Virus record (IMG/VR): IMGVR_UViG_3300005529_000011
Coordinates: 1-49,434 of that record
DNA from: a virus
Direction: 5' to 3' (one strand)
DNA: 49,434 bases
Part shown: one piece after another, positions 7,263-41,541 of the stretch
How positions within the stretch are numbered: the stretch's first letter is position 1
Layout of the letters: every line of letters begins with the position of its first letter
The notes under the pieces: model-generated
Database searches by the model: none
Told to the model about the DNA's origin: nothing
Seen by the model: the letters and a program-made list of their open reading frames with translations, nothing else
Made by a program: the position numbers and the translations under genes

Positions 7263-7711
7263 CCCTTAACGCCGCCGATCGTAAGTCAATCCGCGCCGCC
7301 GAGAAGGCCGCTGCGATTGCCGAGACTCAGCGGGCCGAGGTCGTTGTCGAGATGATGGCGACCGTTGCGCGCCGCCGCTATGTCTGGGAGAAGCTCTCTG
7401 CCGCGAACATCTTCTCCACCACATTCTCCACCGACCCGGTCCAGATGGCTTTCAATGAAGGCCAACGGAATCAAGGCTTGGTCCTACTCAACGACATCAT
7501 CCAATACTGCCCTGAGCAGTTCATTGAAGCAATGAGGGAAGCAAATGGCCGACGAACCGAATCCGACACCCACGCCCGCTCCGGTACAGGGCAACGACCC
7601 AGCAGCGAGGACACCGACGGGGGAGATCAAGGACCATCTCTCGGCGACGCCTTCGACTACGGAGCCGAAACTCGATCCATCAACGGCCACGCAAGCGGCG
7701 AAGCCAGCTGA
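7259..7711 (+). CDS. Bbp19-like phage protein
   Basis: 150-aa protein starting at GTG (GTGACC overlapping the portal stop). Residues 40-95 match the Bbp19 pattern known from Bordetella phage BPP-1: a Trp-containing helix, FSTTFSTDP, then FNEGQRNQGLVLLNDI and a helical end. The last 55 residues (after MREAN) are hydrophilic and low in complexity, and they are encoded in the same DNA as the start of the scaffold gene in another frame (7545-7711). The domain is conserved between portal and scaffold in related phages; its function is not established. Confidence 0.8.
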   Translation: MTLNAADRKSIRAAEKAAAIAETQRAEVVVEMMATVARRRYVWEKLSAANIFSTTFSTDPVQMAFNEGQRNQGLVLLNDIIQYCPEQFIEAMREANGRRTESDTHARSGTGQRPSSEDTDGGDQGPSLGDAFDYGAETRSINGHASGEAS

Positions 7712-21462: not shown

Positions 21463-23171
21463 TGCCGCAGGTCCCTTATCAACCCGTTCCGCAAGTCGCC
21501 CCTAGCGAAGCCGCGACGCCGGGGGTTCGTGTCAATGCGCCGACGGAGGCCTTTGGCGGAGCCAGCGCCGCGGCTACAGAGGGCCTTGGTAAGGGCTTTG
21601 AGCAGGCCGGGAATGAACTCTTCGGCCGCGCGGTTGCGCTTCAACAACTGGCAAATGAAACCGAGGCCCGCGAAGCTGATGCCCAGTATATGCTTCAGGC
21701 TGGTGATCTCCATGCGAAGTTCAATGCGCTAGAAGGCAAAGAGCGCGTCAACGCATTCCCGAAGTATTCGGCGGACCTAGAGGAGCTTAGGGTCAAGCTG
21801 AGGAATGGGCTCTCAAACCAGATGTCGATGAAGATGTATGACGCGTCTTCGCTCTCGGTCATGAGCCGAAGCATCTTCAACGGCGCTGGTGCAGCGGCGA
21901 CGGCGAATAAGGAATGGGCGCACGGCGCGGTCACAGCGCAACATGATCTCTTAGTGAAGGGGGTCTATGATGACCCTAATGACGAGTCGGCGTTCCGTGC
22001 AGCTATCGAGAACAACCACCAAACCGCGACCTCGCGCGCGGCGCTGACGGCTGGAGGTGCGAGCCCGGAGCGGGTGGAGTTGTTCACTCGACAGGGCGAT
22101 TCGACTATCGCGTCCAATCGCATCCTTGGCATGGCGCGGAATGAGCCGTACAAGGCCTCCCAGCTGTTGAAGCAGTATAAGGAAGAAGGCCTCCTCTTTG
22201 GCAAGGACTACGAAGTCGTCTCAAACAAAGTCCAGTCCCTCACCCAAACCGTCGGCACGAATGTGATTGCGAATCAAGTTCTTGGGAAGTATCTTCAGCC
22301 AGATGGGACGTACTCGAAGACGGCGAGCGAGATGCAGGCGGAAGCTGTTGCCGAGGCGACGAAGGCGTATCCCGACGATCCCAAGATGCCTACCGCCGCC
22401 GCTGCGGTGTTCGATCATAACTACAACCAACATCAATGGGCTAAGACGCAGGACGACCGGGCGGTTGCGCAGGAATTGAATAACTACATCGTGAAGGGCG
22501 TGAACAAAGTCGATCTACTCCCGCCCGACCTTGTCAAGCGAATGACCCCGGCGCAGATCAAAGGCTTCCCGGCCGCGGCGAATACCTACCAGCGGTCCGT
22601 AGACCAGCAAACGAATCAAGACGCTTACACACGCCTGCTTGGGCTTTACAACAACGACAATGCGCGGTTCATGGAAACCAACATCATGACCGAGCCGGGG
22701 TTGTCGAAGTCGGATCGTGACCGATTCCTGCATCTCCAGCGGACTGTTGCCGCGAATGGCGACCCGCGCGTATCGAAGGCGATGGCGACGCTCCGTGGCG
22801 CGGTCCCCGGGACCCTTGAGTCGCTGTCGATCTATCGCCGCGATCCGAAGAACCCCGAAGACTTCGACAAGTTCACTGGGGCGCTCCACGAGGCGATTCA
22901 GTCTTGGCAAGAGTCTACTGGCAAGCCGCCGAATGAGCAGCAACTCACCAAGGAAATCTTCCCTAACCTCATCATGCAAGTGACCGACCCAGATCGTTGG
23001 TTTGGTGGGAAGTCAGAGTTGTTCAAGGCGGGGGTCCCCGACGAAGTGCGGGCCCTTGCAGAGAAGGATGCAGGGAAGCCGCTCACCGATGAAGAGGTTC
23101 GCAAGGCCTACCTCCGGACTCAGTTCAACAAACTCTTCGGACAGAAGAAAGATCAGAGTAAGGTTCCGTGA
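21462..23171 (+). CDS. Internal virion protein C-like (T7 gp15-like)
   Basis: 569-aa, mostly helical protein beginning MPQVPYQPVPQVAPSEA, with a Pro-rich start then repeated Ala/Gln/Asn-rich helices. Length, composition and position between gp14-like and the giant ejection protein identify it as the gp15-type component of the periplasmic ejection channel. It overlaps the next start (GTGA). Confidence 0.78.
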   Translation: MPQVPYQPVPQVAPSEAATPGVRVNAPTEAFGGASAAATEGLGKGFEQAGNELFGRAVALQQLANETEAREADAQYMLQAGDLHAKFNALEGKERVNAFPKYSADLEELRVKLRNGLSNQMSMKMYDASSLSVMSRSIFNGAGAAATANKEWAHGAVTAQHDLLVKGVYDDPNDESAFRAAIENNHQTATSRAALTAGGASPERVELFTRQGDSTIASNRILGMARNEPYKASQLLKQYKEEGLLFGKDYEVVSNKVQSLTQTVGTNVIANQVLGKYLQPDGTYSKTASEMQAEAVAEATKAYPDDPKMPTAAAAVFDHNYNQHQWAKTQDDRAVAQELNNYIVKGVNKVDLLPPDLVKRMTPAQIKGFPAAANTYQRSVDQQTNQDAYTRLLGLYNNDNARFMETNIMTEPGLSKSDRDRFLHLQRTVAANGDPRVSKAMATLRGAVPGTLESLSIYRRDPKNPEDFDKFTGALHEAIQSWQESTGKPPNEQQLTKEIFPNLIMQVTDPDRWFGGKSELFKAGVPDEVRALAEKDAGKPLTDEEVRKAYLRTQFNKLFGQKKDQSKVP

Positions 23172-26100
23172 GCAACACTGACTTCGATCCCGACGATGTA
23201 GGCCCGCCAATTGACTTCACCTCGCGGCGCGCTCAGGCCCTCGTGGCATCGAGCGTAGAGGCTGAGCCGGATAAAGCCGTCCGAGCGATTCAGATCGCTG
23301 ACGCTCTTGGCACTAGCCCGGCCGCGGTTCACGAAAACCTCGAGCAGTTCGAAGACCAATACAAGAACGCGCTTTCGTCGCAGATCGTTGCGAGTAACAC
23401 CCACCTACAAGACTACGTCAACTCGCACCCGCTCGCGGCGAAGGTGTCGAATGATGACTATGGGCAGCTAGATGCGGTTTCGCAGAGCCTGTCAAAATAC
23501 GCCGGAGTGCCGGGGGTTGGGTACGTTCCTGAAGAACCCAACTCAATCCTCAAGGCTGGCGTTCGTGGGTTTAGAGAAAACTTCGCTTACGAAGAAACAA
23601 ATGAGGAATACAATAAGCTCGCTCTGACTTTAGCAAGCAATCCAGTCTTTTCAAACATCTTCGTGCGCCAAGCCACTCTTGCTGGGGCAGTAGCTCTTAG
23701 AGGGTCGATGCAACTTGCCGCGGGCATTATTGGCGGCGCGGCAGAGATGATTGGAGAAAGCTATCGGCAGGCCGGTGGCAATGAGGCCCAAGCGGCGCGG
23801 CTTACGCGAGACTTGATCCAGATCGCGCAGGTCGGGCTCTCAGGTCAGGCAGGGCTTCACGGAGTGGTTCATCCTGAAGTTCACGCGATGGTGAATGAGG
23901 CGGCGCGGGTAGCGAAGGTAGTTGAGCCTTATGTCATCGCCGGGAAGGAACCGCCGATAGGGCTCCATCCGGTCATTGACGAGTTCAAGTCACAGCAGGC
24001 GAAGCTAGATGCGGAGAACCTGAGCGAAGCGCTGAGGGAGTCGGTTAAGTCCGCGACCCGCGAGCGAAGCCCCGACCTATTCGCGAACTATATCCGCGGC
24101 ATCACCGACGGGGAGATTGGGATTTCGGCGGATGCGGTGCGGGCGCTATACGGCGACAAGCTTCCAACCCCCGACGATGGCATCCTAGGATTCGTGCCTG
24201 ACCTCGCGGCGCAGCTTGCCCGGGCTGAGGCGACAGGTGGGGATGTTAAGGTCCCCCTCGCTGATTGGCTCGCGCGGGTAGAGCCCGAGGTGGCGAAGGA
24301 ACTTAAGGATCACATTCGCGCCCGGCCGGAGGGAATGACGGTTGAGGAAGCGAAAGAGCCGCCGGGGATCGAGGCTTATCACGGCTCGCCGTATGAATTT
24401 GAGGCGTTTGATACGGGGAAGATTGGGACCGGTGAAGGCGCGCAGAGTTATGGGTATGGGCACTATCTGGCGGAGCATCCGGAGGTAGCGGAGAGTTATC
24501 GAGGCAATCTAACCCATCCAACTAGAGGCATTGGGTTTAGCGATGCAGCAGACGAGGCTCTTGGTTGGATAAATGATGCTAAAGGAGATAAGGGCAAGGC
24601 CAAAGAACTCTACCTTGAGAACGCAGCTCGAAATAAAGAAGAGCCTGATCCTAATATCTTAGAACATTTCAAAGAAGGTAGCTTCTACAAAGCCCGCATC
24701 CTCCGCGCACCGGAAGAGTTCTTGGATTGGGATAAGCGACTCGACGAGCAAGGCGAGCTAGGCCAGAAGATACTTAAGGCCATTGATAAGGATGAAGAAC
24801 TCAAGAACTTCTTCAGTGATGCCACAAAGGCAGAGGATTTTAGGCATTTAACAGGTGCCGGAGTCCACCAAGGTCTTGAGGAGTATGCGGGGTTCGCTCG
24901 CTTGCTGGATGAGAATACTCCAGCTGAGTTTCCTGTTAAGGATGTGGCCGAGTTCCTTCGCCGTGAAGGCATCGCCGGGATTCGGTATTTGGATCAGTTT
25001 TCGCGCCAAAAGCGGCCAGTCGAGGAAATTAAACAGCGCCTTGCAGAAGCTATTGAACGTAAAGACCAAAAGATGGTTGAGTTCCTCCAACGCGAATTAG
25101 AGGATACATCAGGCCCCAACACCTACAACTACGTCGTCTTCTCCGACAAAGACATCCAAGTCATCGAACGGAACGGCGAAGCGGTGCGGAGTCTGCGACA
25201 AGCCGCGGGCCTGCAAGGGATTCAGGAACGGAAGCTTTCGCTCCGCGAACAGGATGAGGTAGCTTATCCACAAGGGAAAGACGGAGATAAGACTTACGCT
25301 TTTGACTTTATTGACGAGCAAGGAACCAATCATGGCTTCATTGCTGTCACAGAAGAGAAAGGTGGCAAGCGCCTTTATGTAGATGATATGGGGGCAGATA
25401 AAGGGCCTAGGGCACTTGGTCCTAGAGCTATGCGTGATGTCCTTGAACAGCTTAAAGAGCGCTTCCCTAATGCGGAAACTTTGGAAGGCTATCGCGTTAG
25501 TGGGGCGAGGTTGAAAGCTGGAGAAGATGCAGTAGGCAAGTCCTCACTCGACCTCACCAAAATCAAACCCCGCGCTAAAGCTCCTGAAGAGCCCAAGCCG
25601 GGATTGATCCAACGCGCGAAGGAAGCAATCGTCGGCAAGAGCGAGGACCAAGTCGCGGCCGAGGCTAAGGCCCAAGATGAGCGCACGGCGTTCGATAAGG
25701 CCTCTGCTATTGGCATGACGGTGGAGCAGTATAAGCGATATCAGGCCCTGATTGAGAAGCGGGCCCGCGAAGATGCCGAAGCCGCGCAAGCCCGCGCTAT
25801 GGCCGACCAGCGCAAGCGGCAGACCGCGGAGTGGAAAGCCAACCGAGCCGAACTCCGGCCGCAGGTGAAGGAGGAGGTCCTATCCCGGCCCGAGGTCGAA
25901 CTCGACGAAATGCTTCGTGAAGGGAAGGTGAAGCTGGCGCCCGAGGGGCTCACGCCGGATCAAGCTCTCCTTCTTAAGGACTACGTCTCCGCCGACGGCA
26001 TCCACGCGCAGGACCTCGCTGGGCTCTTTGGTGATACCGACTCGAAGGCGCTGGTGGACCGTGTCCTTGCCCTCCAGCAGGGCCGCGACCAAGCCGGGAT

Positions 26101-29038
26101 GAAGCCCGAAGCCCACCTCCAGCGCCTGATCGACATCGAAACCGACCGGCAGATGGAGGCGAAGTATGGGTCGTTGGACAAGAACATTCTCGAAGAAGCA
26201 AAGGACCAAGTCCTATCCGAGACACAAGAGGACCTTCTTCACGAAGAAACCCTCGCCCGCGCGACAGAGGCTGGGCTCGAGTTCTCGATTGGGAAGGAAG
26301 AATACAAAGCCGCGCTGAAGGGGTTCTTTGATCGGCAGCTGGTCCGAGATGTGTCGAGTGACCAAGGCTTAGCCGAAGCCGGGCGCGCGGGACGGGCCGC
26401 GGAGATGGCGCTCCTCAAGGGCGACTACGCCGAAGCGTTCCGCCAAAAGCAGCGGCAGTATAACGCGGTGGTGATGGCGAACTACGCGCGGAAGTTTGAG
26501 AAAGAACAAGCGCGGTTTGAGAAGCTCGCGAAGCGGTTCTCATCGCGCGAGGTGCCGGGGGTCGAGCAGGAATATACGAACTGGGTTCATGACATCCTAG
26601 GGCGGACCGGGAACCCGGTGAAGCGCTCCGTCGAGGACCTTGCTGGGGCCATCGACCGGAGCGAACAGAAGACCCTTGCAGACTTCGTTGAGTTCAAAGA
26701 ACTTCATGATATGCGCGAGGTGCCTGTCGCGGAGTTCCTCCAAGACCCCGAGTTCCGCAAGCGGGCCGAGGACCTGACCACCGCGGAGTTTCAAGCCCTT
26801 CATGATTCGATTCGTGCCTTGGCCAAGAACGGCCGCGACGAACTGAAGCTAATCAAGGCCGGTGAGGAGTTCGATCTCAATGAGAAGAAGCGCGAGATGA
26901 TCGCGCAACTTGCTCAGTTCAAGGAGAAACACTATGATGCATCTGGCGGTCGATGGATGGGACCACTTCCTCCTGCTGTGGCACGACCACTCCGGACATA
27001 TTTGGTTTCACACCTCCAACTTGAGTCGATCTTCAACCGTTGGGACCGGGGTGACCCTAGAGGAGTATTCACTCAATTCATTGCTAGAGAACTGGCAACC
27101 GCTGCCAACTCTGAAGCCGCACTAGAGCGCGAGTTCGCGACGAAGCTGCGGGCGGTTGCAGATAAGGCGGACTTGAAAGAGCGGGTGCCGAATGAGTTAT
27201 TCAAGGACCCGCTAGGCGGCGCCTCGATCCAGATGACGAGGAAGAATCTACGGGCGATCCTTCTGAACGTCGGCAACGACTCGAACCTGACCAAGCTCGC
27301 GCGGGGGTATCTCGGCACGGTGGAGAAGGGCGACGTTGGTCGGGCACAGGTAGAAGGCTTCAAGGCTCAGGTGATGCAATGGCTCCATACCCACGCAACG
27401 AAGGAAGACTGGGATTGGGCACAAGGCATCTGGAACACCTTCGCAGATATTAAGAAGCGATCAGATACAATGTATCGGTCTCTGACCGGCGGCGTTGAGC
27501 CCGAGTCGATCCCGGTCCGGGCGATTGAGACTCCGCACGGAACGTATCCCGGCGGGTACTATCCGGTGATCTACCACCCCGTCTGGGAAGGGGCGAGCAA
27601 GAAGTTGATGGGCGGGGACATTCTCGAGCAAGAGAACTACGTCCGCGCGACCACCCCCGCTGGCTACACGAAACAACGCACTGGCTACGCGGCCCCGCTC
27701 TCGCTCGACCTCGACATGATGCCGGTCCGTATGCGGCAGATGCTTCATGACATCGCGTTCCGGCCGAGCGTGATTCAGGCAGGAAAGATTTTCTACGATA
27801 AGGATGTTCGAGCCGCGATCACGAAGCACTATGGGACGGAATACACAAAGATGCTCGTGCCCTATCTTCGGGATGTGGCGAACGCCGCGAATTACCGGAA
27901 CGATGCGCAGCAGGTCTTTACGCGGTTCTCGGAACTCGTCCGCCAGAACATTATTGCGACGCTGATCGGCTTGAACCCCGGCACGGTGCTGAAGCACGGC
28001 CCGACCGCGGCGGTGAACTCGGTGACAGAGGTGGGGTTGGGGAACTTCCTCCGTGCAATGAAGGGGCTTTTCTCGATCAACGAGGGGACCGGCGAGACCA
28101 ACTGGAGCTTCGCGTTGAAGACCTCCGAGGAACTCCAGCGCCGTCATCGGTTCTATCGTGAGACAATGGGCGGCGCGATGGAAGAGATTCAGGGTGAGCG
28201 CTCGCTCCGAGACAATATCATTCGCCTTGGCTCATATCCCGTCGCAATGTCGGACCTGCTCTCCGCGGTGCCGACTTGGATGGCGAAGTATCAGAGCGAA
28301 ATGGGCGAGCATGGGATTCACGGCGATGCGGTCTTTGCTGCGGATCGAGCGGTTCGACGCGCTCATGGGTCGAGCGTTATTACTAACCGGCCACTAGTTA
28401 TGCGGACTGGACCTTTAGGCTCTTGGTTCGCGTCGCTGTATGGCTTCTTCAACCACATTATGAACCGCCAATACGAACTCGCTTGGAAAGCGGGCGACAC
28501 GCTTGACTTAGTCAAGAAAGGGGAGTATAAGAAAGCTATGGCTGAGGTGCCCGGGATCGCGGGGATGTTGTTCTCGTATGTAATCGCACCAGCCATTATC
28601 GAGGAACTTGTGACTCCTTTAGCAAGCGACAAAAAGGAATCATGGGGAATGAAGGCCGCAAAGAGCCTTACCTATACTGTCTCAGCAAGCTGGATTGTGG
28701 TGCGCGAAATCGCTTCTGCGGTTTTGAATGGTCGCGACCCAAGTATGGGCCTCTTGACTACAGCAGCTAAGACCGTGACCGATACAGTCCGCGATCTCGA
28801 GAAAGACAAGCCCTTCTCGAAGCGGAACGCGGGGCGCCTCATCCAGCACTCAGCCACGACCCTTGGCGCGGCGACCGGGCTGGTGAATGCTCAGGTCGGC
28901 AAGTCCGGCCGGTTCATCTACGACTACGCCAACGGCCTCGTCAAGCCCAAGGGTCCGTGGGGGTGGATGGTTGGGCTCCGGTATGGAACCCTCGACAAGC
29001 ACTCGCAGACATTTGATCAATGGATGAAAGGACACTAA
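23168..29038 (+). CDS. Giant internal virion protein with ADP-ribosyltransferase-like domain
   Basis: 1956-aa ejection protein, GTG start overlapping the previous stop. Residues about 400-670 contain the ART-type signature of phage polyvalent proteins: AYHGSPYEFEAFD, GTGEGAQSYGYGHYLAE, and a closing block NTYNYVVFSDKDIQVIER. A second small domain follows (about 700-780; LYVDDMGADKG to GYRVSGARL), then long charged helical regions and a C-terminal conserved part with hydrophobic segments near 1795-1850 (GMLFSYVIAPAIIEELV). It probably forms the inner channel and delivers the ART domain with the DNA to modify host proteins. No lytic transglycosylase motif is seen. Several AT-richer patches (about 24500-25120) suggest inserted modules. 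Confidence 0.82.
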   Translation: MSNTDFDPDDVGPPIDFTSRRAQALVASSVEAEPDKAVRAIQIADALGTSPAAVHENLEQFEDQYKNALSSQIVASNTHLQDYVNSHPLAAKVSNDDYGQLDAVSQSLSKYAGVPGVGYVPEEPNSILKAGVRGFRENFAYEETNEEYNKLALTLASNPVFSNIFVRQATLAGAVALRGSMQLAAGIIGGAAEMIGESYRQAGGNEAQAARLTRDLIQIAQVGLSGQAGLHGVVHPEVHAMVNEAARVAKVVEPYVIAGKEPPIGLHPVIDEFKSQQAKLDAENLSEALRESVKSATRERSPDLFANYIRGITDGEIGISADAVRALYGDKLPTPDDGILGFVPDLAAQLARAEATGGDVKVPLADWLARVEPEVAKELKDHIRARPEGMTVEEAKEPPGIEAYHGSPYEFEAFDTGKIGTGEGAQSYGYGHYLAEHPEVAESYRGNLTHPTRGIGFSDAADEALGWINDAKGDKGKAKELYLENAARNKEEPDPNILEHFKEGSFYKARILRAPEEFLDWDKRLDEQGELGQKILKAIDKDEELKNFFSDATKAEDFRHLTGAGVHQGLEEYAGFARLLDENTPAEFPVKDVAEFLRREGIAGIRYLDQFSRQKRPVEEIKQRLAEAIERKDQKMVEFLQRELEDTSGPNTYNYVVFSDKDIQVIERNGEAVRSLRQAAGLQGIQERKLSLREQDEVAYPQGKDGDKTYAFDFIDEQGTNHGFIAVTEEKGGKRLYVDDMGADKGPRALGPRAMRDVLEQLKERFPNAETLEGYRVSGARLKAGEDAVGKSSLDLTKIKPRAKAPEEPKPGLIQRAKEAIVGKSEDQVAAEAKAQDERTAFDKASAIGMTVEQYKRYQALIEKRAREDAEAAQARAMADQRKRQTAEWKANRAELRPQVKEEVLSRPEVELDEMLREGKVKLAPEGLTPDQALLLKDYVSADGIHAQDLAGLFGDTDSKALVDRVLALQQGRDQAGMKPEAHLQRLIDIETDRQMEAKYGSLDKNILEEAKDQVLSETQEDLLHEETLARATEAGLEFSIGKEEYKAALKGFFDRQLVRDVSSDQGLAEAGRAGRAAEMALLKGDYAEAFRQKQRQYNAVVMANYARKFEKEQARFEKLAKRFSSREVPGVEQEYTNWVHDILGRTGNPVKRSVEDLAGAIDRSEQKTLADFVEFKELHDMREVPVAEFLQDPEFRKRAEDLTTAEFQALHDSIRALAKNGRDELKLIKAGEEFDLNEKKREMIAQLAQFKEKHYDASGGRWMGPLPPAVARPLRTYLVSHLQLESIFNRWDRGDPRGVFTQFIARELATAANSEAALEREFATKLRAVADKADLKERVPNELFKDPLGGASIQMTRKNLRAILLNVGNDSNLTKLARGYLGTVEKGDVGRAQVEGFKAQVMQWLHTHATKEDWDWAQGIWNTFADIKKRSDTMYRSLTGGVEPESIPVRAIETPHGTYPGGYYPVIYHPVWEGASKKLMGGDILEQENYVRATTPAGYTKQRTGYAAPLSLDLDMMPVRMRQMLHDIAFRPSVIQAGKIFYDKDVRAAITKHYGTEYTKMLVPYLRDVANAANYRNDAQQVFTRFSELVRQNIIATLIGLNPGTVLKHGPTAAVNSVTEVGLGNFLRAMKGLFSINEGTGETNWSFALKTSEELQRRHRFYRETMGGAMEEIQGERSLRDNIIRLGSYPVAMSDLLSAVPTWMAKYQSEMGEHGIHGDAVFAADRAVRRAHGSSVITNRPLVMRTGPLGSWFASLYGFFNHIMNRQYELAWKAGDTLDLVKKGEYKKAMAEVPGIAGMLFSYVIAPAIIEELVTPLASDKKESWGMKAAKSLTYTVSASWIVVREIASAVLNGRDPSMGLLTTAAKTVTDTVRDLEKDKPFSKRNAGRLIQHSATTLGAATGLVNAQVGKSGRFIYDYANGLVKPKGPWGWMVGLRYGTLDKHSQTFDQWMKGH

Positions 29039-31241: not shown

Positions 31242-31270
31242 AGTATGACAGAAAGCGAAGCGGATGTCAA
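31242..31270 (-). promoter_or_regulatory. Sigma70-like promoter for the CHAP-like gene
   Basis: On the minus strand TTGACA (31270-31265) is followed after 17 bp by CATACT (31247-31242). The -35 is perfect and the -10 matches 4 of 6. The -35 overlaps the stop of the helicase gene. Start codon of the CHAP-like gene is 33 bp beyond the -10. Confidence 0.65.
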
Positions 31271-32499
31271 TCCCGCGCTTCTACCACAGCCTGCCAAAGC
31301 TTCTGGCCGGTTGCGTTGTCGATGCCGATTGTGCGAAGTTGGCCGCTGCGCTCCATCACTTCAATGACTCGCATCACGCTATGAGCCGGGACCCGCTCTT
31401 GTGCGAAGCGGACGATCTTATGCTCAAGTACCCCGGCTCGCTTGAGGTCGGAGGAAAGGACGTAGTGGAAGATTTCATCCATGGCCTTCGCATCCGCGCC
31501 AGTCCCGCCAGCTTTGAAGATTTCGGGCATTACCTCCTCCGCCTCTAGAAGCCAGCCCATCGCACGATTGAAGACTTCCTTGGTGAGTAGGAGTTGGTTT
31601 CCCACATCCACCGCTGCGACCATAGAGAGCTTGAGTAGATGCGCGAGTCGGCGGGTGTTGTAGTGGAGGAGCTTGGGGTGATTCGGGACTGGTCCTTGAC
31701 CGACCTTGCGCCAGTTGTTGATCGCGGCTCGGTAGTCCTCAGTCGCGGAGAATTGTCCGATAAGAGAGTTGATAATAGCAAGATCGTGCACCATGTCGCT
31801 AGGAGCGTCTCGAGACGTGTGGGCGAAGAAGTCATCGGAGATTATCCTTTGGTCCGAGAAGACCATGATGACACGGGAGGTGAAGCCTTGGTCCCATGCG
31901 TTCTCGGGCATGAACTTGATTAAGTTCGATGGCGTAGTTCCTGAAAGAATTGATAGTTGAGGGTGTTTGATAAGGATGCGTAGATCGTTCCCGCGCCGTC
32001 TCTGTGAATATGGTGCCGTAACGTCATAGAAAGTAGTGAGTCCGCCAATAATCTCGTCGTCAAATTTGTGCATGAAGGCGCTGAGTTCGTCGGCGCAGAT
32101 GAGCATGCTGTTGTACTCAAGAGGCGGGTTCGGCAGGTTGATAATGGTCCGCTTCGCATCGACAAGGGCATCTACCATGCTCGCCATAGACATTGAAGTG
32201 GGGGCAAGATGTGGTTCAGGCAAACCACGATAGAACTTAGCCGCCGACATAATCGTTCTAGTCTTACCAACGCCCGGATGGCCCACCAAAAAGATATACA
32301 AGTTTGGGTATAGTGGAGCGGAGGTTTGTAGCCAGACCTTCTGCTCAAGCGTAGCGCCGATAATGCCAATGGCAGCCCACTTGCGAAAGATAGCGGCGCT
32401 TTCCAGATTGCTTGCATATTCAACGAAGCTTTCGATCCAAGATTGACACTTTCGGCGACCGGCGCCGTTCATCGTGCCCGGTGTAGTCTTTGAGGCCAT
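31267..32499 (-). CDS. Replicative helicase-like ATPase (DUF3987-like)
   Basis: 410-aa P-loop ATPase with Walker A GHPGVGKT (residues 73-80), Walker B SMLICADELS (131-140), and a sensor-type region (LSILSGTTPSNL). The sequence resembles DUF3987/primase-associated helicase ATPases of phages and plasmids. A C-terminal winged-helix-like part (EIFHYVLSS onwards) could bind DNA. It would unwind the template for the polymerase encoded just before it (80-bp overlap). ATG 32499 has AAAGGA 9 bases upstream. No primase domain is present in this protein. Confidence 0.75.
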   Translation of the reverse strand: MASKTTPGTMNGAGRRKCQSWIESFVEYASNLESAAIFRKWAAIGIIGATLEQKVWLQTSAPLYPNLYIFLVGHPGVGKTRTIMSAAKFYRGLPEPHLAPTSMSMASMVDALVDAKRTIINLPNPPLEYNSMLICADELSAFMHKFDDEIIGGLTTFYDVTAPYSQRRRGNDLRILIKHPQLSILSGTTPSNLIKFMPENAWDQGFTSRVIMVFSDQRIISDDFFAHTSRDAPSDMVHDLAIINSLIGQFSATEDYRAAINNWRKVGQGPVPNHPKLLHYNTRRLAHLLKLSMVAAVDVGNQLLLTKEVFNRAMGWLLEAEEVMPEIFKAGGTGADAKAMDEIFHYVLSSDLKRAGVLEHKIVRFAQERVPAHSVMRVIEVMERSGQLRTIGIDNATGQKLWQAVVEARD

Positions 32500-33910
32500 C
32501 CACGTTTTCCTTTGAATAATCGCCGCGGTTCCAGCCGACTTTGCAATCGTAGGGGATTAGAAGGGTTCGGTCGTGTTTGAGTTGGATGGGGACTTTGAGT
32601 TGGGAAAGGATGCGGGGGATGATGGTGTCTTCTTGGGCTTCGGGGTATTGGATGGTGATGGCGTCGTGATCTTGCATGAGGAGGACGGCGTCGCGGGCGC
32701 GCCACACGTTGAGCATTGCGGTGTTTACGATGTCGGCCAAGCTACATTGCGGATCATATGCAATAGCTTCTCGTAGGGTTGCGTCGTCGTTGCGCCTTCC
32801 CCAGAACTGTCTCTTGCGGCCAGTAAGGGAGATTAAGGTTCCGGTCTTGCGAAGCTGAGAGTCTACATACTCCTGCCAACGTAGGTGCGCCGGGAACGCT
32901 TTGAAGTATTTCGGCTGGAAGTCTTCGACGACCGTGATCGGGAGTTTGGCTTGTTGAGAAAGAGTTGCAGCCTTACCACCATAGTTGCTTCCATGACCAA
33001 GTTTCTTGCACATAAAGCGGTAAGTGTAGTGTCGATAATAGGGTTGCTCTGCAACATTCTTATCGAACTTGAGGTCTCCAGTAGGCGACCAATCAAGTCC
33101 CGGCCAACATATTCTTGCAGTTGCTGTATGAGGGTCCCCAGATTCACAGGCTTCGAGGTATCGTCCGTCATGAAACAAGTTCCATTCTATTGCTCCTACG
33201 ATAAAGCTCTCCCCCGACTTCGCATCAAACTTCGCCATCTTCATTCCGGGGTCGGCGATGAAGATGCTACGCAGCGACTCCTCGACGTTCTGAAGATTTC
33301 CGCCGGTGCCGAACTCGCTGAAGCTGGAGGAGAACCGGCCCGTCGATGTGCCCGCGATGTTGTACGAGGTGCGGATGCGCCCGTCGGGATCGATCTCGGT
33401 CTTTAGCATCGCGATTTTCTTTCCGAGGTCGCGCATAGTGGTGATATGTCGCACGATCTGCCTCGCGATGATATATTGCTCCATCTTCTCCAGCGCGTCG
33501 CGGTTGGTGGTGGGCTTGCCGCCACGGCGGATTGGTGGGATCATCAATCGATCGTAGAAGAGGGTCCGGAGGTCGGGCGGGCTGCGCCAGTTGAAGTGCG
33601 GCATGCCAACGCCTTCGAGTACAATTCTCTCCAGCTGCGCCTCAAGACGCTCGATCTTGTTGAAGTAGTCGTCGATGACCTCAGCCTTTCGTTGCTGATC
33701 AACCAAGATGCCCCGCAAGCGCATCTCCAGTGCAGGCCCTTGTAGATCGCGGCTGAAGCGATATGTGGCGGCGGTATGATCGTCGAGTTGAGGAAGTAGA
33801 GCATCGAGAACCTCCGCGGTGACGCAGCAATCGAGGCCGTTGTAGACCTGCTCGCGCTCGAAAGGGGAGAGCGATTCCGGGGCGGTGGAGTCGGTGGGGA
33901 TGATTTTCAT
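32420..33910 (-). CDS. DNA polymerase family A, polymerase part with ExoIII motif
   Basis: 496-aa protein. It begins with the last exonuclease motif (YNGLD, residues 23-27), then thumb-like helices, TSTGR (188-192), motif A (KFDAKSGESF, Asp229), motif B (RFMCKKLGHGSNYG, 298-311) and motif C (QDHDAIT, Asp416). The usual HDE of motif C is HDA. The polymerase is complete, but the upstream half of its 3'-5' exonuclease domain is in the separate UDG-exonuclease gene, with a 66-aa gene in between. All three are joined by ATGA overlaps. Confidence 0.9.
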   Translation of the reverse strand: MKIIPTDSTAPESLSPFEREQVYNGLDCCVTAEVLDALLPQLDDHTAATYRFSRDLQGPALEMRLRGILVDQQRKAEVIDDYFNKIERLEAQLERIVLEGVGMPHFNWRSPPDLRTLFYDRLMIPPIRRGGKPTTNRDALEKMEQYIIARQIVRHITTMRDLGKKIAMLKTEIDPDGRIRTSYNIAGTSTGRFSSSFSEFGTGGNLQNVEESLRSIFIADPGMKMAKFDAKSGESFIVGAIEWNLFHDGRYLEACESGDPHTATARICWPGLDWSPTGDLKFDKNVAEQPYYRHYTYRFMCKKLGHGSNYGGKAATLSQQAKLPITVVEDFQPKYFKAFPAHLRWQEYVDSQLRKTGTLISLTGRKRQFWGRRNDDATLREAIAYDPQCSLADIVNTAMLNVWRARDAVLLMQDHDAITIQYPEAQEDTIIPRILSQLKVPIQLKHDRTLLIPYDCKVGWNRGDYSKENVDGLKDYTGHDERRRSPKVSILDRKLR

Positions 33911-34107
33911 TCGTCGTCTTCGACGACCTTTGGGATGAATAGAGAGGCGTAGTATTCAACGCCATCATAGATCACAAGGCCCAAGTCTTGGAACTTGCCT
34001 TCGATGAGACCGTAGGGTGGAACGCCCTGTTGCTGCTCACTCTCAATGCGAAACTCAACACCTTTGAGATCGACTAGAACTTTTTCAGTAAGTGCGAGTG
34101 TGGTCAT
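33907..34107 (-). CDS. Hypothetical protein (66 aa) lying between the two polymerase parts
   Basis: 66-aa protein beginning MTTLALTEKVLVDLKGVEF, linked by ATGA overlaps to the UDG-exonuclease gene before it and the polymerase gene after it. The composition is that of a small folded beta-rich protein (VEFRIESEQQQGV, GLVIYDGVEYYASLF) with an acidic end (VVEDDE). It is not an intron-type endonuclease. It may bridge the two polymerase parts; no family recognised. Confidence 0.65.
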   Translation of the reverse strand: MTTLALTEKVLVDLKGVEFRIESEQQQGVPPYGLIEGKFQDLGLVIYDGVEYYASLFIPKVVEDDE

Positions 34108-35201
34108 TCATCCCTCTTAATGGTTGTAACCTTTCGCTCCGTCTTCCACGGCCCCTCGTCGGTGAAGACACTCCCGAGGAAACCAAGGCCCTTCAACGAC
34201 TCCGGTTGTAGGGCGTGGGAGAGGAGCATAGTGTCTTCTTCTGCGCCGTAGACAGGGATGCCTACGCTTCGCCAGAGGAAGGCGATGTCGTATAATCCAT
34301 TCTGAAAGACTTTTCTAATTTCTGCATTTCCGAGAATATGTCTACATACCTCCCATGCAGCATGCTCGCTTCGGTCAGTAGGCCAAAAGCTTTTAGTCTT
34401 CTTTCGTCCGTCGAAGAATGGGATGACAATGGCTGTTGCTTTGTTAGGGGCGAAGCCAATGCATGTAACTTGGTTTCCACTTGTTTCAATGTCAACAGAA
34501 ACGAATCCAGCTGGTCGGATGTGTTCATTGTAGTACCTTTCTATGTCTTCAACGGTTGGCTCAATCCATATCTCCCGCTTCGGCCTCCGGATCTCGGGGA
34601 ACCCAGCCTCCCGCTTCGCCTTCATCAGGTCCATAACCGTAGTCGGCCGAAGCTCCCATTGCCTCAAGACCGCGGCGGGGTGATAGGTAGGCAATACCTT
34701 AAATCCAGTAGCGGTGTGAGTAGACAATCGCGTGGTGCCGCGTATCTTTGATATGCCAGTAGTCCCACAGAGAGCCCAAAGAGGAGTGTTGCCAAGAGCG
34801 ATAATAAGGTTTGGATCGATGGTCGTGATTTCATCGGCGAGGGCCTCTAGGTGGGGGATGAATTCGCGGCGGAGGAACTTGGATTGGACGAGGGCCGGGT
34901 ATCCGCGGATGCCTTCAGCCTTCGGCCCACAGAGGGATTTGATGTCGTTGCCGAATGGGTGGAAGGGGAAGACATTCGCGCGGCGGACTTCGGGGTGTAG
35001 GCGCCACACAGCGTCGATGCAGGCTGGGTCGCCAAGGTTCCAGAAGCGCGAGATGAAGGATTGGTCCTCGGCGGAGAGGTCGATGACGGAAGCATCGTGG
35101 AGCATACGGAGGAGTTCGACGCCGGAGGCGCCGACGAAGCCAGCTTTGAGCTTGACCTCATTACTCCCCCACGCTTCCCCGAGTAAGAGAATTGGCTTCA
35201 T
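34104..35201 (-). CDS. UDG-like domain fused to the N-terminal part of a 3'-5' exonuclease
   Basis: 365-aa protein. Residues 1-205 are a uracil-DNA-glycosylase-superfamily domain: GEAWGSNE (8-15), FVGASGVELL, ALGNTPLWALCG (135-146), and LPTYHPAAVLR (170-180). Residues 230-350 are the first part of a Pol I-type exonuclease: ExoI DIET (237-240) and ExoII NGLYD (301-305). The frame stops at KGLGFLGSVFTDEGPWK before ExoIII. In SPO1-like phages a UDG-like domain, exonuclease and polymerase form one chain; here it is cut in two. It starts with ATG overlapping the DUF6378 stop. Confidence 0.85.
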   Translation of the reverse strand: MKPILLLGEAWGSNEVKLKAGFVGASGVELLRMLHDASVIDLSAEDQSFISRFWNLGDPACIDAVWRLHPEVRRANVFPFHPFGNDIKSLCGPKAEGIRGYPALVQSKFLRREFIPHLEALADEITTIDPNLIIALGNTPLWALCGTTGISKIRGTTRLSTHTATGFKVLPTYHPAAVLRQWELRPTTVMDLMKAKREAGFPEIRRPKREIWIEPTVEDIERYYNEHIRPAGFVSVDIETSGNQVTCIGFAPNKATAIVIPFFDGRKKTKSFWPTDRSEHAAWEVCRHILGNAEIRKVFQNGLYDIAFLWRSVGIPVYGAEEDTMLLSHALQPESLKGLGFLGSVFTDEGPWKTERKVTTIKRDE

Positions 35202-36084: not shown

Positions 36085-36264
36085 TTAGAAGGGAATTTCG
36101 TCGTTAGCGTCAGTGCTTGGCTTAGGTTGTGCTTGCTCCTCTTTGATTAGAAGATCGTCGAGAAGGTCTCTAACGCGGCTAGATAACTTCTCGAATTCAT
36201 ACCCATTGATACGTGATAGTGCCTCTAGCGCAATGCTGAGGTCTTTGATCTTCCGTTCGTTCAT
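36085..36264 (-). CDS. 59-aa protein ending in an SSB-type C-terminal tip
   Basis: Begins MNERKIKDLSIALEALSR, a single amphipathic helix or two (residues 1-42), then a Pro/Gln linker and the end TDANDEIPF. The last residues copy the conserved tip of bacterial SSB (DDDIPF in E. coli), which docks many replication and repair proteins. No OB-fold is present in the chain. ATGA overlap ties it to the Sak4-like gene; the SSB-like gene follows 21 bp later. Confidence 0.75.
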   Translation of the reverse strand: MNERKIKDLSIALEALSRINGYEFEKLSSRVRDLLDDLLIKEEQAQPKPSTDANDEIPF

Positions 36265-37109
36265 TTGCGGACCAGCTTGGGTTTCGGAACTTGCTTGGGT
36301 GGCTCGCGTAGAACGGCGAAGAAGTCAGCAAGGCCCGTCTCGATGGGAAGGGTCTTGCCCGGCATGGCGTTCGGGTTAGTGTTTGCGAGGTCGATCATGC
36401 CGTCGGATTCTAGCTGGATAGTGCGCTTGCCTCCTTTGTTGGTGTAGCGGATGTAGTTCGGGAAGTATTGAGGGATTTTCGGCGAGAGCTTCTGGCCCAC
36501 GCCTTGTGGGAAGATTTTCTGGGTGCCGTCAGGGAGGTCCATGTATTGGCCGTGCGCAATGACGATCAGGTTGCAGGCGAAGGACTTGGACGTGAGCATC
36601 CCCAGCATTGACTCGATAGCGTCCTGTGCGTTGCCGTAAATCGCGCGGCCATCGGCCTCACCGGAGCGGCCCTTGGGGATCACCGCGGCGCACCAATCGT
36701 AGGCCGCGTCGCAGAGGCGCGAGAGTGAGTCGATCACGAGGACGCAATCCGGGCCCCAGTCTGAAGGGACGCCGAGGTCGACGACTTCGCCGGAGTCGTC
36801 TTTGTATTTCCACCGGTCGAGCATCTTCGTGGCCTCGATGAAGGCCTCGGTCTTGGAGATCAACGGACCCGCGGCGGTCATCTTGCGTTCGTCGCGGAGA
36901 GTGCGGAATTCGACGTTGTCGATCAAGTCCGGGCATTGCTCAGCGATCAGCTTCGCGAGGATGTCGAGGAGGTTGTCGAGGTCGAGGATGCGAAGCTTGT
37001 ACCCGGCCTTGACAAGTGAGATAAGGGACCCCGTCTTGCCTGACTTCGCATCGCCGATCAGAAGCAACTTCACGAAGTCATTGGATTGGTGGCTTGCTAG
37101 GCTGGGCAT
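36261..37109 (-). CDS. Sak4-like RecA-type ATPase (recombinase)
   Basis: 282-aa P-loop ATPase with Walker A GDAKSGKTG (19-27) and Walker B CVLVIDSLS (122-130), the layout of Sak4 single-strand annealing/recombination proteins. ATG 37109 (CACCGAGGTGCTTT before it) is preferred to the start 11 codons upstream. Sak4 works with a phage SSB; an SSB-like gene and an SSB-tail gene follow directly. Confidence 0.8.
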   Translation of the reverse strand: MPSLASHQSNDFVKLLLIGDAKSGKTGSLISLVKAGYKLRILDLDNLLDILAKLIAEQCPDLIDNVEFRTLRDERKMTAAGPLISKTEAFIEATKMLDRWKYKDDSGEVVDLGVPSDWGPDCVLVIDSLSRLCDAAYDWCAAVIPKGRSGEADGRAIYGNAQDAIESMLGMLTSKSFACNLIVIAHGQYMDLPDGTQKIFPQGVGQKLSPKIPQYFPNYIRYTNKGGKRTIQLESDGMIDLANTNPNAMPGKTLPIETGLADFFAVLREPPKQVPKPKLVRK

Positions 37110-37317
37110 AAAGCACCTCGGTGTAAAGAGTGAGTAGGTCACCCGCCTTAACGTCGGCTTGATCGGGAAGGGTCACGGTCATTGTCGTAGACCCGCCGAG
37201 TTCGAGCTTCATCGCGTTCGCGGTTCGGTCGGAGACGCGAAACTTGCCAAGGACGAGGACAAGGCGGAGTTGCTTTCGGGTCGCGGCGGACATCTCAGCG
37301 TCGGTTGGGTCAGGCAT
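37078..37317 (-). CDS. Small hypothetical protein (79 aa)
   Basis: 79-aa protein beginning MPDPTDAEMSAATRKQLRL, beta-rich (MKLELGGSTTMTVTLPDQ), ending in VLYAQPSKPPIQ. It overlaps the Sak4 start by 32 bp and its own start overlaps the previous stop. No family recognised. Confidence 0.65.
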   Translation of the reverse strand: MPDPTDAEMSAATRKQLRLVLVLGKFRVSDRTANAMKLELGGSTTMTVTLPDQADVKAGDLLTLYTEVLYAQPSKPPIQ

Positions 37318-37573
37318 CGAACTTCTGCCTCTTGAGCATACAGACGACGAAGCAACGCGGGGGCGCGGTAGGGTTCGCCTGTGCGAGATTCATGTTCAGA
37401 TGCCACGGCTCCCAGCCTTCCTCGCCGAGGCGGTTGATCTCGTCGAAGATTTCTTTCTGGAAGTCGGCTTGAGCCTTCTCGGTGCCGAGCGGGCCGGATT
37501 GCATAGCGAACTCGCGACTCTCCCAGCGGGGGCGGAAGACCGGAGATTTTATCGGGGCTTGAGTGGATTCCAT
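37310..37573 (-). CDS. DUF4177-like small protein (87 aa)
   Basis: ATG 37573 follows CAGAGGATCAAAG. The chain has IFDEINRLGEEGWEPWHL and ends FVVCMLKRQKFDA, the helix-EGWE-strand-KR pattern of DUF4177-type proteins. Function unknown. It overlaps the end of the nuclease gene. Confidence 0.65.
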   Translation of the reverse strand: MESTQAPIKSPVFRPRWESREFAMQSGPLGTEKAQADFQKEIFDEINRLGEEGWEPWHLNMNLAQANPTAPPRCFVVCMLKRQKFDA

Positions 37574-38553
37574 CTTTGATCCTCTGTGAGTTTGTCGAAA
37601 TCTGACTTGAGAAACTGCTCTCGCACCTGTGGGCTCTTTGAGCAGATCGATCTGAACCTGCATCCACCAAACTTATCGCACGACAAATCATTCATCGGCC
37701 AATAGTCGGCTTCAGCGAAGGCCTCAGCTTGGGCGAGGAGCGAGTGAAGGTCGGTCAGCCACTCATCGAGTTGGTCGGGGGTGCGATAGGTGAAGCCGCG
37801 CACGAAGCGGGCGCCGTAGTCGCCGGATTTGTCGTAGTCGAGCATGAGTTGTGCGGCGTTGATTATCACGCCTTTGATCGGCGAGGAGAGGATGACCTTC
37901 CCCGCGTAGGAGTAGAGGGACATTTGGTTGTGTGGGGAGTATTGGTCGAAGTAGTAGGACCCGAGGGTGGTGAGGGAGGTCTTGTGGTCCATCACGAAGA
38001 GCGAGCCGTTGAAGTCTACAACGCGGTCGAGGTGGCCACAGAGGAGGTAGGGTTGGCCGGGGATCAATGTACTATCAAACACAGTACCAACTTCCTGCTG
38101 ATCTGCTCGCGGCCCCCAATCCAACTCAAACCTAAAGCTCAACTCCACCGCGGGCTTGCCGTCGGCTTTGATGTAGGTCTTCGCTGGGTCCTCGGCATGT
38201 TCGTCGAGGTACCAAATCACGCAGCGGATGAGCATGTTCCGCGACTTATACTTCCCCGCCCGCGTGTCGGGATCGGGCTTGAAGTCGGCGGTGCGCTCAA
38301 GGAGGGCTTTGACTACGTCGAAGATCGCGTCGTCATGCGGGATGCCCGCGGCGCGCGAGAGGTCATAGTCTTGGAGGGCTTGATGGTACTCTTGCCCGAA
38401 GCGGAGATGGACCGACTCCTCGGTTGAGCCCCATCCGTCGATCATGACGTATTGGTAGAGGCGTGGGCAGGTCTTGAGGAGGCCAAGGCTTGTGCTATCC
38501 CAAGCGAACTGCACCTTAGTACCCGGAAGGAAAGGGGATTGGGCTTCGGTCAC
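37549..38553 (-). CDS. RecB/Cas4-like PD-(D/E)XK nuclease with Fe-S cysteines
   Basis: 334-aa nuclease. His57 (FGQEYHQAL), Glu138, Asp176 (CGHLDRVVD), the catalytic D-x-K in MDHKTS (Asp189, Lys191) and Gln210 (NQMSLYSYAG) follow the RecB-family order. Cys29 together with Cys292, Cys298 and Cys304 gives the four ligands of the AddB/Cas4-type iron-sulphur cluster. It would resect DNA ends for Sak4-mediated annealing. ATGA overlap with the preceding 76-aa gene. Confidence 0.85.
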   Translation of the reverse strand: MTEAQSPFLPGTKVQFAWDSTSLGLLKTCPRLYQYVMIDGWGSTEESVHLRFGQEYHQALQDYDLSRAAGIPHDDAIFDVVKALLERTADFKPDPDTRAGKYKSRNMLIRCVIWYLDEHAEDPAKTYIKADGKPAVELSFRFELDWGPRADQQEVGTVFDSTLIPGQPYLLCGHLDRVVDFNGSLFVMDHKTSLTTLGSYYFDQYSPHNQMSLYSYAGKVILSSPIKGVIINAAQLMLDYDKSGDYGARFVRGFTYRTPDQLDEWLTDLHSLLAQAEAFAEADYWPMNDLSCDKFGGCRFRSICSKSPQVREQFLKSDFDKLTEDQRWNPLKPR

Positions 38554-39770: not shown

Positions 39771-40135
39771 TACAAAGGCTTCTCCCTAAGCGCCCAACCC
39801 CTGCCCCAGACTGTCTCTATCTCAAAGGGGAGGTTCATACGTTTGATGTCCTGACGGAGCTTGCAAATGTAAACATCGAATATCTTCGCTTCACAACCGC
39901 CGTTAGGATCAGCTCCGTACATCACGAGCCAGAGAGCTTCACGAGAGACGACGTTGTTGAGGCGGTGAGCGAGTTGTGAAAAAATAGCAGCTTTAGCCCT
40001 TGATAGGCGAATGACGCTATTGTCCTTAGTGATGTGGTCTCTATAGAAAATGAAGTTTCCAATAGCCACCGGCTTGAAGTCTAGCGTGTGACCACATGAG
40101 GGACAGGTAGCTACTGCGATGTGGGTCATGCCCAT
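39770..40135 (-). CDS. OmpR-type winged-helix protein with CxxC motif
   Basis: 121 aa. Residues 11-16 hold CPSCGH, a partial zinc finger. Residues about 40-118 match the DNA-binding domain of OmpR/PhoB regulators: RLSRAKAAIFSQLAHRLNN, VVSREALWLVMYG, the recognition-helix region IFDVYICKLRQDI, and the wing hairpin VWGRGWALRE. There is no receiver domain. It is likely a phage transcription regulator. Confidence 0.75.
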   Translation of the reverse strand: MGMTHIAVATCPSCGHTLDFKPVAIGNFIFYRDHITKDNSVIRLSRAKAAIFSQLAHRLNNVVSREALWLVMYGADPNGGCEAKIFDVYICKLRQDIKRMNLPFEIETVWGRGWALREKPL

Positions 40136-41541
40136 TTGATGTCTCGAGAGTTGATGTAGTAGAGTTCATTCTTCGAGCGGGTGTCGATGACGTAGCGGAG
40201 GTTCAGGTCCTGCTCATCTTCTCGGCAAAGCCAAGGGTCGAGGTGATAGACGGTATCCCACTCAAGGCCCTTCGCCTTATGCCCCGTCATCAATCGGATG
40301 GTCCCTCGCTGCGCGAAAAGATGTTCCGCATACGCCGTCGCCTGCGCGAGCGTCTCACCGTGTTGGGCGAAGACCCGCATGCAGTCGGCGAGGTCTTGGG
40401 CGGTGGTGGATTCTCGGGCGAGGCGTTCGAGGAGCCAGTCGTCAATGGCGGAGAGGAGACTGGCGCGGGACATGCTTGCATCCCCAAGCTTTCGCATAAT
40501 GCCGAGTAGCTTCGGGCCAATCTCCGATCCAGCGACCGACACAGAGCGTCCAGCCCCGAGGAGTCGCAAGGCAACGGCAAAGAGCGGAGCATTATTACGC
40601 GAGAGGATGGCGGAGCTATCACTGAAATCTGAAGGGTGTATTGTGTTTTTGCTTTCGACATGACCGCCCGGTTTGATCCATTTGAAATGTGGGACACGCC
40701 AACGGGCGTTTTCTACGATTGCTTGTGGGCAGCGGAAGGAGACGGAGAGGTCGCATCCTGTTGTGCTGAAGCGGGTGGCAAGGGTTGCCATTCCACTTTG
40801 CACAGCCCCTCTAAAACCGTATATAGACTGCCAAGGATCGCCGACGAGTATGGTGCGACCCTTAACAAGTTTATCAAGTAAAGCATGGTTGACGGGGTTA
40901 AGGTCTTGAACTTCATCCACCTTGACGAGCGGAAATCTGGGAAAGGTACCTCCGAATAGTGCAGGCATGTATACTTGATCGTTATAGTCAATGTTGCCTT
41001 GGTAGGCTGCTTGGATTGACCGTGTGAGAACCGCGTCAATGAGATCGGCGGTGAGGTCGTCGGGGGTTTCGTCGAGACTCGCGTGGAAAGCACTTGCCCC
41101 GATAAGACGTTTGGCGTTGGGGAACTTTCCCTCTGGGACATACCCAAGCGCCTTCGCTTTCGCGACCCCCGCGACGACTTCCCAGAACGAGTCCCAGAGC
41201 GGCCCTTGGTCTTTGCGCGGTGTTTCATCGATGATTCCTCGGAGGATGTCTTGGGATTTCTTGGGATTCAGCGCCAAGTTCTTAGAACAAGACTTAGCCC
41301 AAATGCGATGGCCAAGAGAATTAAAAGTGCGGACTGTGGTTGTAGACAACATTCGGTCGGATGCATCTTCGGCAATCTTTTTGTTGAAACAGAGATAGAG
41401 GATGGGCTTCGCCTTCACGGCGCGTTCGATCATCTCAAGGGTCGTTGTCTTCCCGGTCCCCGCGAGGGCCGAGATAAGAAGGTTCGAGTCGGTCCCTGTA
41501 GAGAGGGAGAGGATGTGTTCCTGCTCGGAGGTTGGGTTCAC
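40126..41541 (-). CDS. UvrD/Rep-like superfamily 1 DNA helicase
   Basis: 471 aa, GTG start. Motif I ALAGTGKTTT (25-34), motif II VDEVQD (208-213), motif III GDPWQSIYGFRGA (234-246), motif IV-like VSFRCPQAIVENAR and motif V/VI MTGHKAKGLEWDTV (about 427-440) are all visible. It is shorter than UvrD (about 720 aa) and lacks the large 2B insert. A 3'-5' DNA helicase in phage replication or recombination, next to the RecB-like nuclease genes. Confidence 0.9.
   Translation of the reverse strand: MNPTSEQEHILSLSTGTDSNLLISALAGTGKTTTLEMIERAVKAKPILYLCFNKKIAEDASDRMLSTTTVRTFNSLGHRIWAKSCSKNLALNPKKSQDILRGIIDETPRKDQGPLWDSFWEVVAGVAKAKALGYVPEGKFPNAKRLIGASAFHASLDETPDDLTADLIDAVLTRSIQAAYQGNIDYNDQVYMPALFGGTFPRFPLVKVDEVQDLNPVNHALLDKLVKGRTILVGDPWQSIYGFRGAVQSGMATLATRFSTTGCDLSVSFRCPQAIVENARWRVPHFKWIKPGGHVESKNTIHPSDFSDSSAILSRNNAPLFAVALRLLGAGRSVSVAGSEIGPKLLGIMRKLGDASMSRASLLSAIDDWLLERLARESTTAQDLADCMRVFAQHGETLAQATAYAEHLFAQRGTIRLMTGHKAKGLEWDTVYHLDPWLCREDEQDLNLRYVIDTRSKNELYYINSRDIKWA

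Follow-up and report, generated by a model that had tools for sequence, protein, structure and literature searches.

The window (by which we mean the whole stretch of 49,434 nucleotides of viral DNA analyzed here, IMG/VR record IMGVR_UViG_3300005529_000011) carries on its minus strand three open reading frames that follow one another head to tail in the order UDG-exonuclease, a 66-aa ORF and DNA polymerase, and both joints are 4-nt ATGA overlaps (table 1). In the first chain Pfam recognizes an N-terminal UDG domain (PF03167, 3e-12) and a DNA_pol_A_exo1 domain, and in the last one DNA_pol_A (PF00476, 2e-31), with the catalytic residues of polymerase motifs A, B, and C (D229, K302, and H415-D416) conserved. 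The profile phrog_17, which describes a single DNA polymerase in 1445 columns, is matched by the two chains in turn, the UDG-exonuclease covering columns 553-788 and the polymerase columns 809-1231; the two chains thus correspond to one collinear polymerase. A sequence-only reading of this DNA had proposed that the polymerase is cut between its second and third exonuclease motifs and that a small gene fills the gap with an ATGA overlap at either end, and both proposals were borne out: DIET and NGLYD lie on the first protein and YNGLD on the polymerase. The residues of ExoI, ExoII, and ExoIII are therefore all present but are distributed over two chains, which is not the single-chain form of a proofreading polymerase.

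Table 1. Features of the split polymerase locus (positions are those of the window; residue numbers are those of the chain concerned)
Feature	Positions	Strand	Basis or remark
UDG-exonuclease chain, 365 aa: UDG domain and N-terminal 3'-5' exonuclease part (ExoI, ExoII)	34104-35201	-	PF03167, PF01612, phrog_17
ExoI motif DIET, residues 237-240 of the UDG-exonuclease chain	34482-34493	-	D237 and E239 invariant in 158/158 readable distinct sequences
ExoII motif NGLYD, residues 301-305 of the UDG-exonuclease chain	34287-34301	-	N301 and D305 invariant in 161/161 readable
ATGA overlap, UDG-exonuclease stop / 66-aa ORF start	34104-34107	-	
66-aa ORF in the gap, passenger	33907-34107	-	No known family, no relatives found
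ATGA overlap, 66-aa ORF stop / polymerase start	33907-33910	-	
Family A DNA polymerase chain, 496 aa, with the ExoIII segment at its start	32420-33910	-	PF00476; Klenow/Taq structures
ExoIII motif YNGLD, residues 23-27 of the polymerase chain	33830-33844	-	D27 invariant in 162/162, Y23 in 159/162

At its 3' end (32420-32499) the polymerase ORF overlaps by 80 nt the longest reading of a downstream DUF3987 primase-like ORF (31267-32499), a gene that may start at a later ATG. Other genes of replication and recombination on the same strand encode a Sak4-like annealing protein, an exonuclease, and a helicase (36261-37142, 37549-38553, and 40126-41541), and the virion-gene region includes a single ORF of 1956 aa (23168-29038).

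The cut is shared by a large group of relatives. In a first round of searches all 82 loci that held both pieces, the isolated Caulobacter phage Kuura included, carried them as separate ORFs, and a search with the polymerase of Kuura brought in just one further contig. After further searches the count, which leaves out the window and a separate case (L110, below), stood at 181 split loci, all cut at the same point, versus no fused locus inside the clade; a few contigs entered the set twice with different locus ids, and the 162 distinct protein pairs (with the window's) are the safer number. Fused homologues, which the sequence-only reading had assumed, do exist: about 20 loci, all among more distant relatives outside the split clade, encode single chains of about 780-860 aa. 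What is one gene in these relatives is thus found as two ORFs, broken at a fixed place, in 181 loci. Since so many related loci share the cut, neither chance nor sequencing error can be the source of the stop. In a tree built from 107 polymerases, split and fused forms are placed apart and the character requires two changes, one of them L110, although this is a quick tree in which some outgroup branches are long and the outgroup order is unsure. The split is an old and fixed trait of the clade, not a local oddity. The polymerases of the group also share a feature of the O-helix: the position equivalent to Phe762 of Escherichia coli (R-x3-K-x3-762), occupied in the window by His306 (near 32993), is a histidine in 157 of the 158 polymerases of the split clade that could be read there, as well as in most of the fused kin. 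A survey of viral PolA recognized only the types Phe, Tyr, and Leu762 (PMC6302109), so that the histidine marks a further one.

The space between the two halves is far less constant than the cut itself. Its length runs from -4 to 1702 nt, and on the tree the state with or without a gap gene changes at least 22 times. No gene is present in 35 of the 181 loci, where the junctions are mostly ATGA or TAATG; the others hold 220 ORFs, or 221 if that of the window is counted, which fall into 99 similarity clusters, some small ORFs among them perhaps not being genes. Matches to HNH_3, LAGLIDADG_3, and Endonuclease_7 occur among these ORFs, some just below the Pfam cut-off, and counted by cluster the nuclease loci comprise 20 of an HNH cluster, three with LAGLIDADG, three with EndoVII, and L069, or about 27 of 181. 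The gap of the window has no homing endonuclease match; homing-type nuclease ORFs are found in these ~27 relatives and in L110. Two loci that are close on the tree, L020 and L031, hold a LAGLIDADG and an EndoVII nuclease, respectively, at the same site, which shows the replacement of one nuclease by another. To judge from these sequences, the gap is a landing slot for homing-type nucleases and passenger genes. Two non-nuclease families also recur in the gaps of deep-branching relatives (L089, L194, L214, and many others): DUF7768, in 30 loci, and, in 24 loci, a family that looks to be of the nucleoside deoxyribosyltransferase type (DUF4406/DUF1937).

L110 bears most directly on how the cut arose. 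It is nested among the fused phages; its exonuclease half ends in ...VQWKPDKTTWKVGG-stop, an HNH ORF follows at 7052-7480 (phrog_3377, 8e-28), and the polymerase half resumes with its own start at ...EEDLWKYNCLD. An HNH gene has thus entered the same site independently, and we read L110 as a second hit on the loop that is cut in the split clade. Such an event is the probable route for the clade as a whole, in which a free-standing homing endonuclease would have inserted into a fused UDG-exonuclease-polymerase gene in the loop before ExoIII. A different beginning is nevertheless quite possible, though we hold it with some reserve: an ordinary stop or frameshift mutation could have divided the gene, with endonucleases and passengers colonizing the gap later. 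Gapless junctions are indeed common in the window's subclade, and gene 43 of the T4-like phage 44RR is split without an endonuclease (PMC2988022), so that an endonuclease in the gap is not obligatory for a phage enzyme in pieces. Against a mutational beginning stand L110 itself, where the HNH ORF makes the same split within the fused clade, and the occurrence of gap genes in nearly all of the deep split lineages. In the deepest of these, other genes (DUF7768 and others) occupy the gap at least as often as nucleases do, and for this reason we put the endonuclease origin no higher than probable.

Whatever its beginning, the cut has left the exonuclease residues intact. The catalytic carboxylates are laid out as D, E, and D on chain 1 and D on chain 2, and none of the four varies among the 162 distinct pairs: the aspartate and the glutamate of ExoI are constant in 158/158 readable cases, the aspartate of ExoII in 161/161, and that of ExoIII in 162/162, whereas the ExoIII tyrosine differs in three pairs. 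Since the four carboxylates are invariant wherever they can be read, selection still acts on one proofreading site spread over two chains. In the Klenow enzyme, as is established, one metal ion is bound jointly by the ExoIII aspartate and the residues of ExoI, so that neither chain alone possesses a complete site. Both chains have acquired conserved ends at the junction, chain 1 an invariant WK usually 12-14 residues before its terminus and then a common TIKRD-like tail, and chain 2 the start M-[KR]-I-I-x-T. The suggestion that the two proteins must reassemble to proofread is therefore argued for by the catalytic residues kept on both of them, and we infer that they assemble into an active proofreading enzyme.

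Structure models are consistent with such an assembly. In L052 the two genes are in the same frame with a single TAG and then an ATG between them, and natural DNA can thus be read as one chain. The AlphaFold model of this chain, read through the TAG, has a pLDDT of 88.4 and a pTM of 0.83; the only stretch below 50 pLDDT is the junction (residues 354-366), and the ExoIII segment forms a helix (384-409). Aligned with Klenow 1kfs (VIA-align), the model gives Z 30.0 and rmsd 4.5 over 554 residues (model 206-841). The joined chain is thus predicted to have a Klenow-like exonuclease and polymerase fold that matches Klenow-type structures over both halves, although its artificial link of one residue means that it cannot show the binding of separate chains. 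When the window polymerase was modeled alone (from an alignment with relatives), YNGLDC (residues 23-28) fell below 50 pLDDT and was not helical. The contrast suggests that ExoIII folds on its partner chain, and it is indicative only, the two models differing in sequence and alignment.

That the two proteins act apart, the polymerase working without proofreading, the UDG-exonuclease serving as a repair protein, and ExoIII surviving as a structural leftover, seems to us improbable. A UDG domain alone could serve uracil repair, the joining of the chains is itself deduced, and jumbo phages have been described in which a polymerase lacking an exonuclease is accompanied by a separate, stand-alone one (PMC7824862). 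But a useless ExoIII aspartate should drift, whereas the four carboxylates are constant over both chains in 162 distinct pairs, and an exonuclease with ExoI and ExoII alone would be one metal ligand short, as is established for Klenow.

The role of the small ORF can be judged from the same comparison. The sequence-only reading saw the 66-aa protein as a possible bridge, a subunit joining the two halves, and since its gene fills the gap precisely and overlaps each neighbor by ATGA, it is probably co-expressed with them. The bridge did not survive the comparison with relatives and we now think it very improbable. The protein has no Pfam or PHROG match, and no relative was found by pattern search in the IMG/VR viral contigs or in any fetched locus. 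The same split occurs with an empty gap in the 35 loci mentioned above and with unrelated genes elsewhere; even L010 and L011, which of the relatives whose gap can be read are the nearest to the window and have polymerases nearly identical to each other, carry unrelated gap ORFs. Since no cargo is universal, no bridge protein is required, and the window's ORF is a passenger that assembly would not need.

That the halves are rejoined into one chain by splicing, an intein, or programmed frameshifting is scarcely credible, for although the polymerase frame lies in the same -1 phase at 33 of the 35 gapless junctions, stop-start junctions such as ATGA and TAATG yield this very phase, an XXXYYYZ heptamer occurs in the last 90 nt of only nine of the 35 and always 69-90 nt upstream, frameshifting cannot operate at loci where whole genes fill a gap of as much as 1.7 kb, and no Rfam family was matched in the window or in 23 relatives, many junctions moreover having no gap at all. 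Frameshifting was accordingly rejected for want of a consistent slippery heptamer and a group I or group II intron for want of an Rfam match, in agreement with the earlier remark that no intron is visible.

To our knowledge, natural split enzymes made by homing endonucleases come from a few T4-like phages. Close in kind is the split ribonucleotide reductase NrdA of Aeh1 with its mobE (Friedrich et al. 2007, via PMC2988022), an essential phage enzyme divided at a critical site by a free-standing homing endonuclease, whose halves reassemble without splicing; it is another enzyme, however, and the endonuclease is still in place, whereas here the split is fixed throughout a clade and the insert has been turned over or lost. 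Gene 43A/43B of the T4-like Aeromonas phages 25 and 44RR likewise produces a replicative DNA polymerase from two cistrons, and the halves co-purify with polymerase activity (PMC2988022), but it is of family B, is limited to few phages, and lacks the family A UDG-exonuclease-polymerase architecture cut between ExoII and ExoIII. Both Aeh1 NrdA and phage 25 gp43A/43B function as split proteins (PMC2988022). In the OM43 phages MEP401 and MEP402, and in most of their group, two ORFs encode a family A polymerase and a small ORF of unknown function separates them, but there the cut lies inside the polymerase domain, the exonuclease is in the first ORF, and the authors suspected an intron (PMC10580990). 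Genes 029 and 026 of Kuura (OQ067476) are divided in the same way, and each half carries the motifs that it has in the window; they differ in having two other gap ORFs and in that the UDG-exonuclease half is annotated only as a hypothetical protein, and the Kuura paper reports the DNA polymerase and not the other half. The fused polymerase of MW202489 and its relatives (phrog_17) has the same domains in the same order and differs in being one chain. In the open-access literature we came across no account of a UDG-exonuclease-polymerase divided between ExoII and ExoIII; phage enzymes in pieces were already known, and this cut is new with respect to that literature.

We therefore consider it likely that the locus encodes a family A replicative polymerase in pieces, the chains of which assemble and were probably separated by a homing endonuclease. 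After the insertion the halves would have stayed functional as an assembly of two chains, and the arrangement would then have become fixed. Chain 1 would bring the UDG domain and the metal-binding exonuclease core (the ExoI D/E and the ExoII D) and chain 2 the ExoIII helix (Y/D) with the polymerase, both made from neighboring cistrons whose frequent stop-start overlaps suggest translational coupling. Their assembly after translation would give a Klenow-like enzyme, the exonuclease site of which is completed in trans by the ExoIII aspartate. Since then nucleases and small passenger ORFs have been lost, exchanged, or regained in the gap. The cut might even be used and not just tolerated, the UDG-exonuclease chain binding the polymerase reversibly so that chain stoichiometry switches proofreading and uracil scanning. 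This is a speculation that we regard as rather doubtful; if true, it would make the enzyme a natural two-component polymerase with an exonuclease site existing only in the complex.

A practical consequence concerns annotation, where the UDG-exonuclease half easily passes for a hypothetical protein and a polymerase of this type would be recorded as having no proofreading. More generally, a whole clade of environmental phages, represented by more than 160 distinct sequence pairs, carries a fixed split through an active site of its replicative polymerase, and forms with and without a gap occur in one system, together with an independent case from the sister group (L110). Such a system may allow the study of how an enzyme survives fission, whether proofreading is shared between two chains, and how an insertion slot in an essential gene is maintained and refilled.
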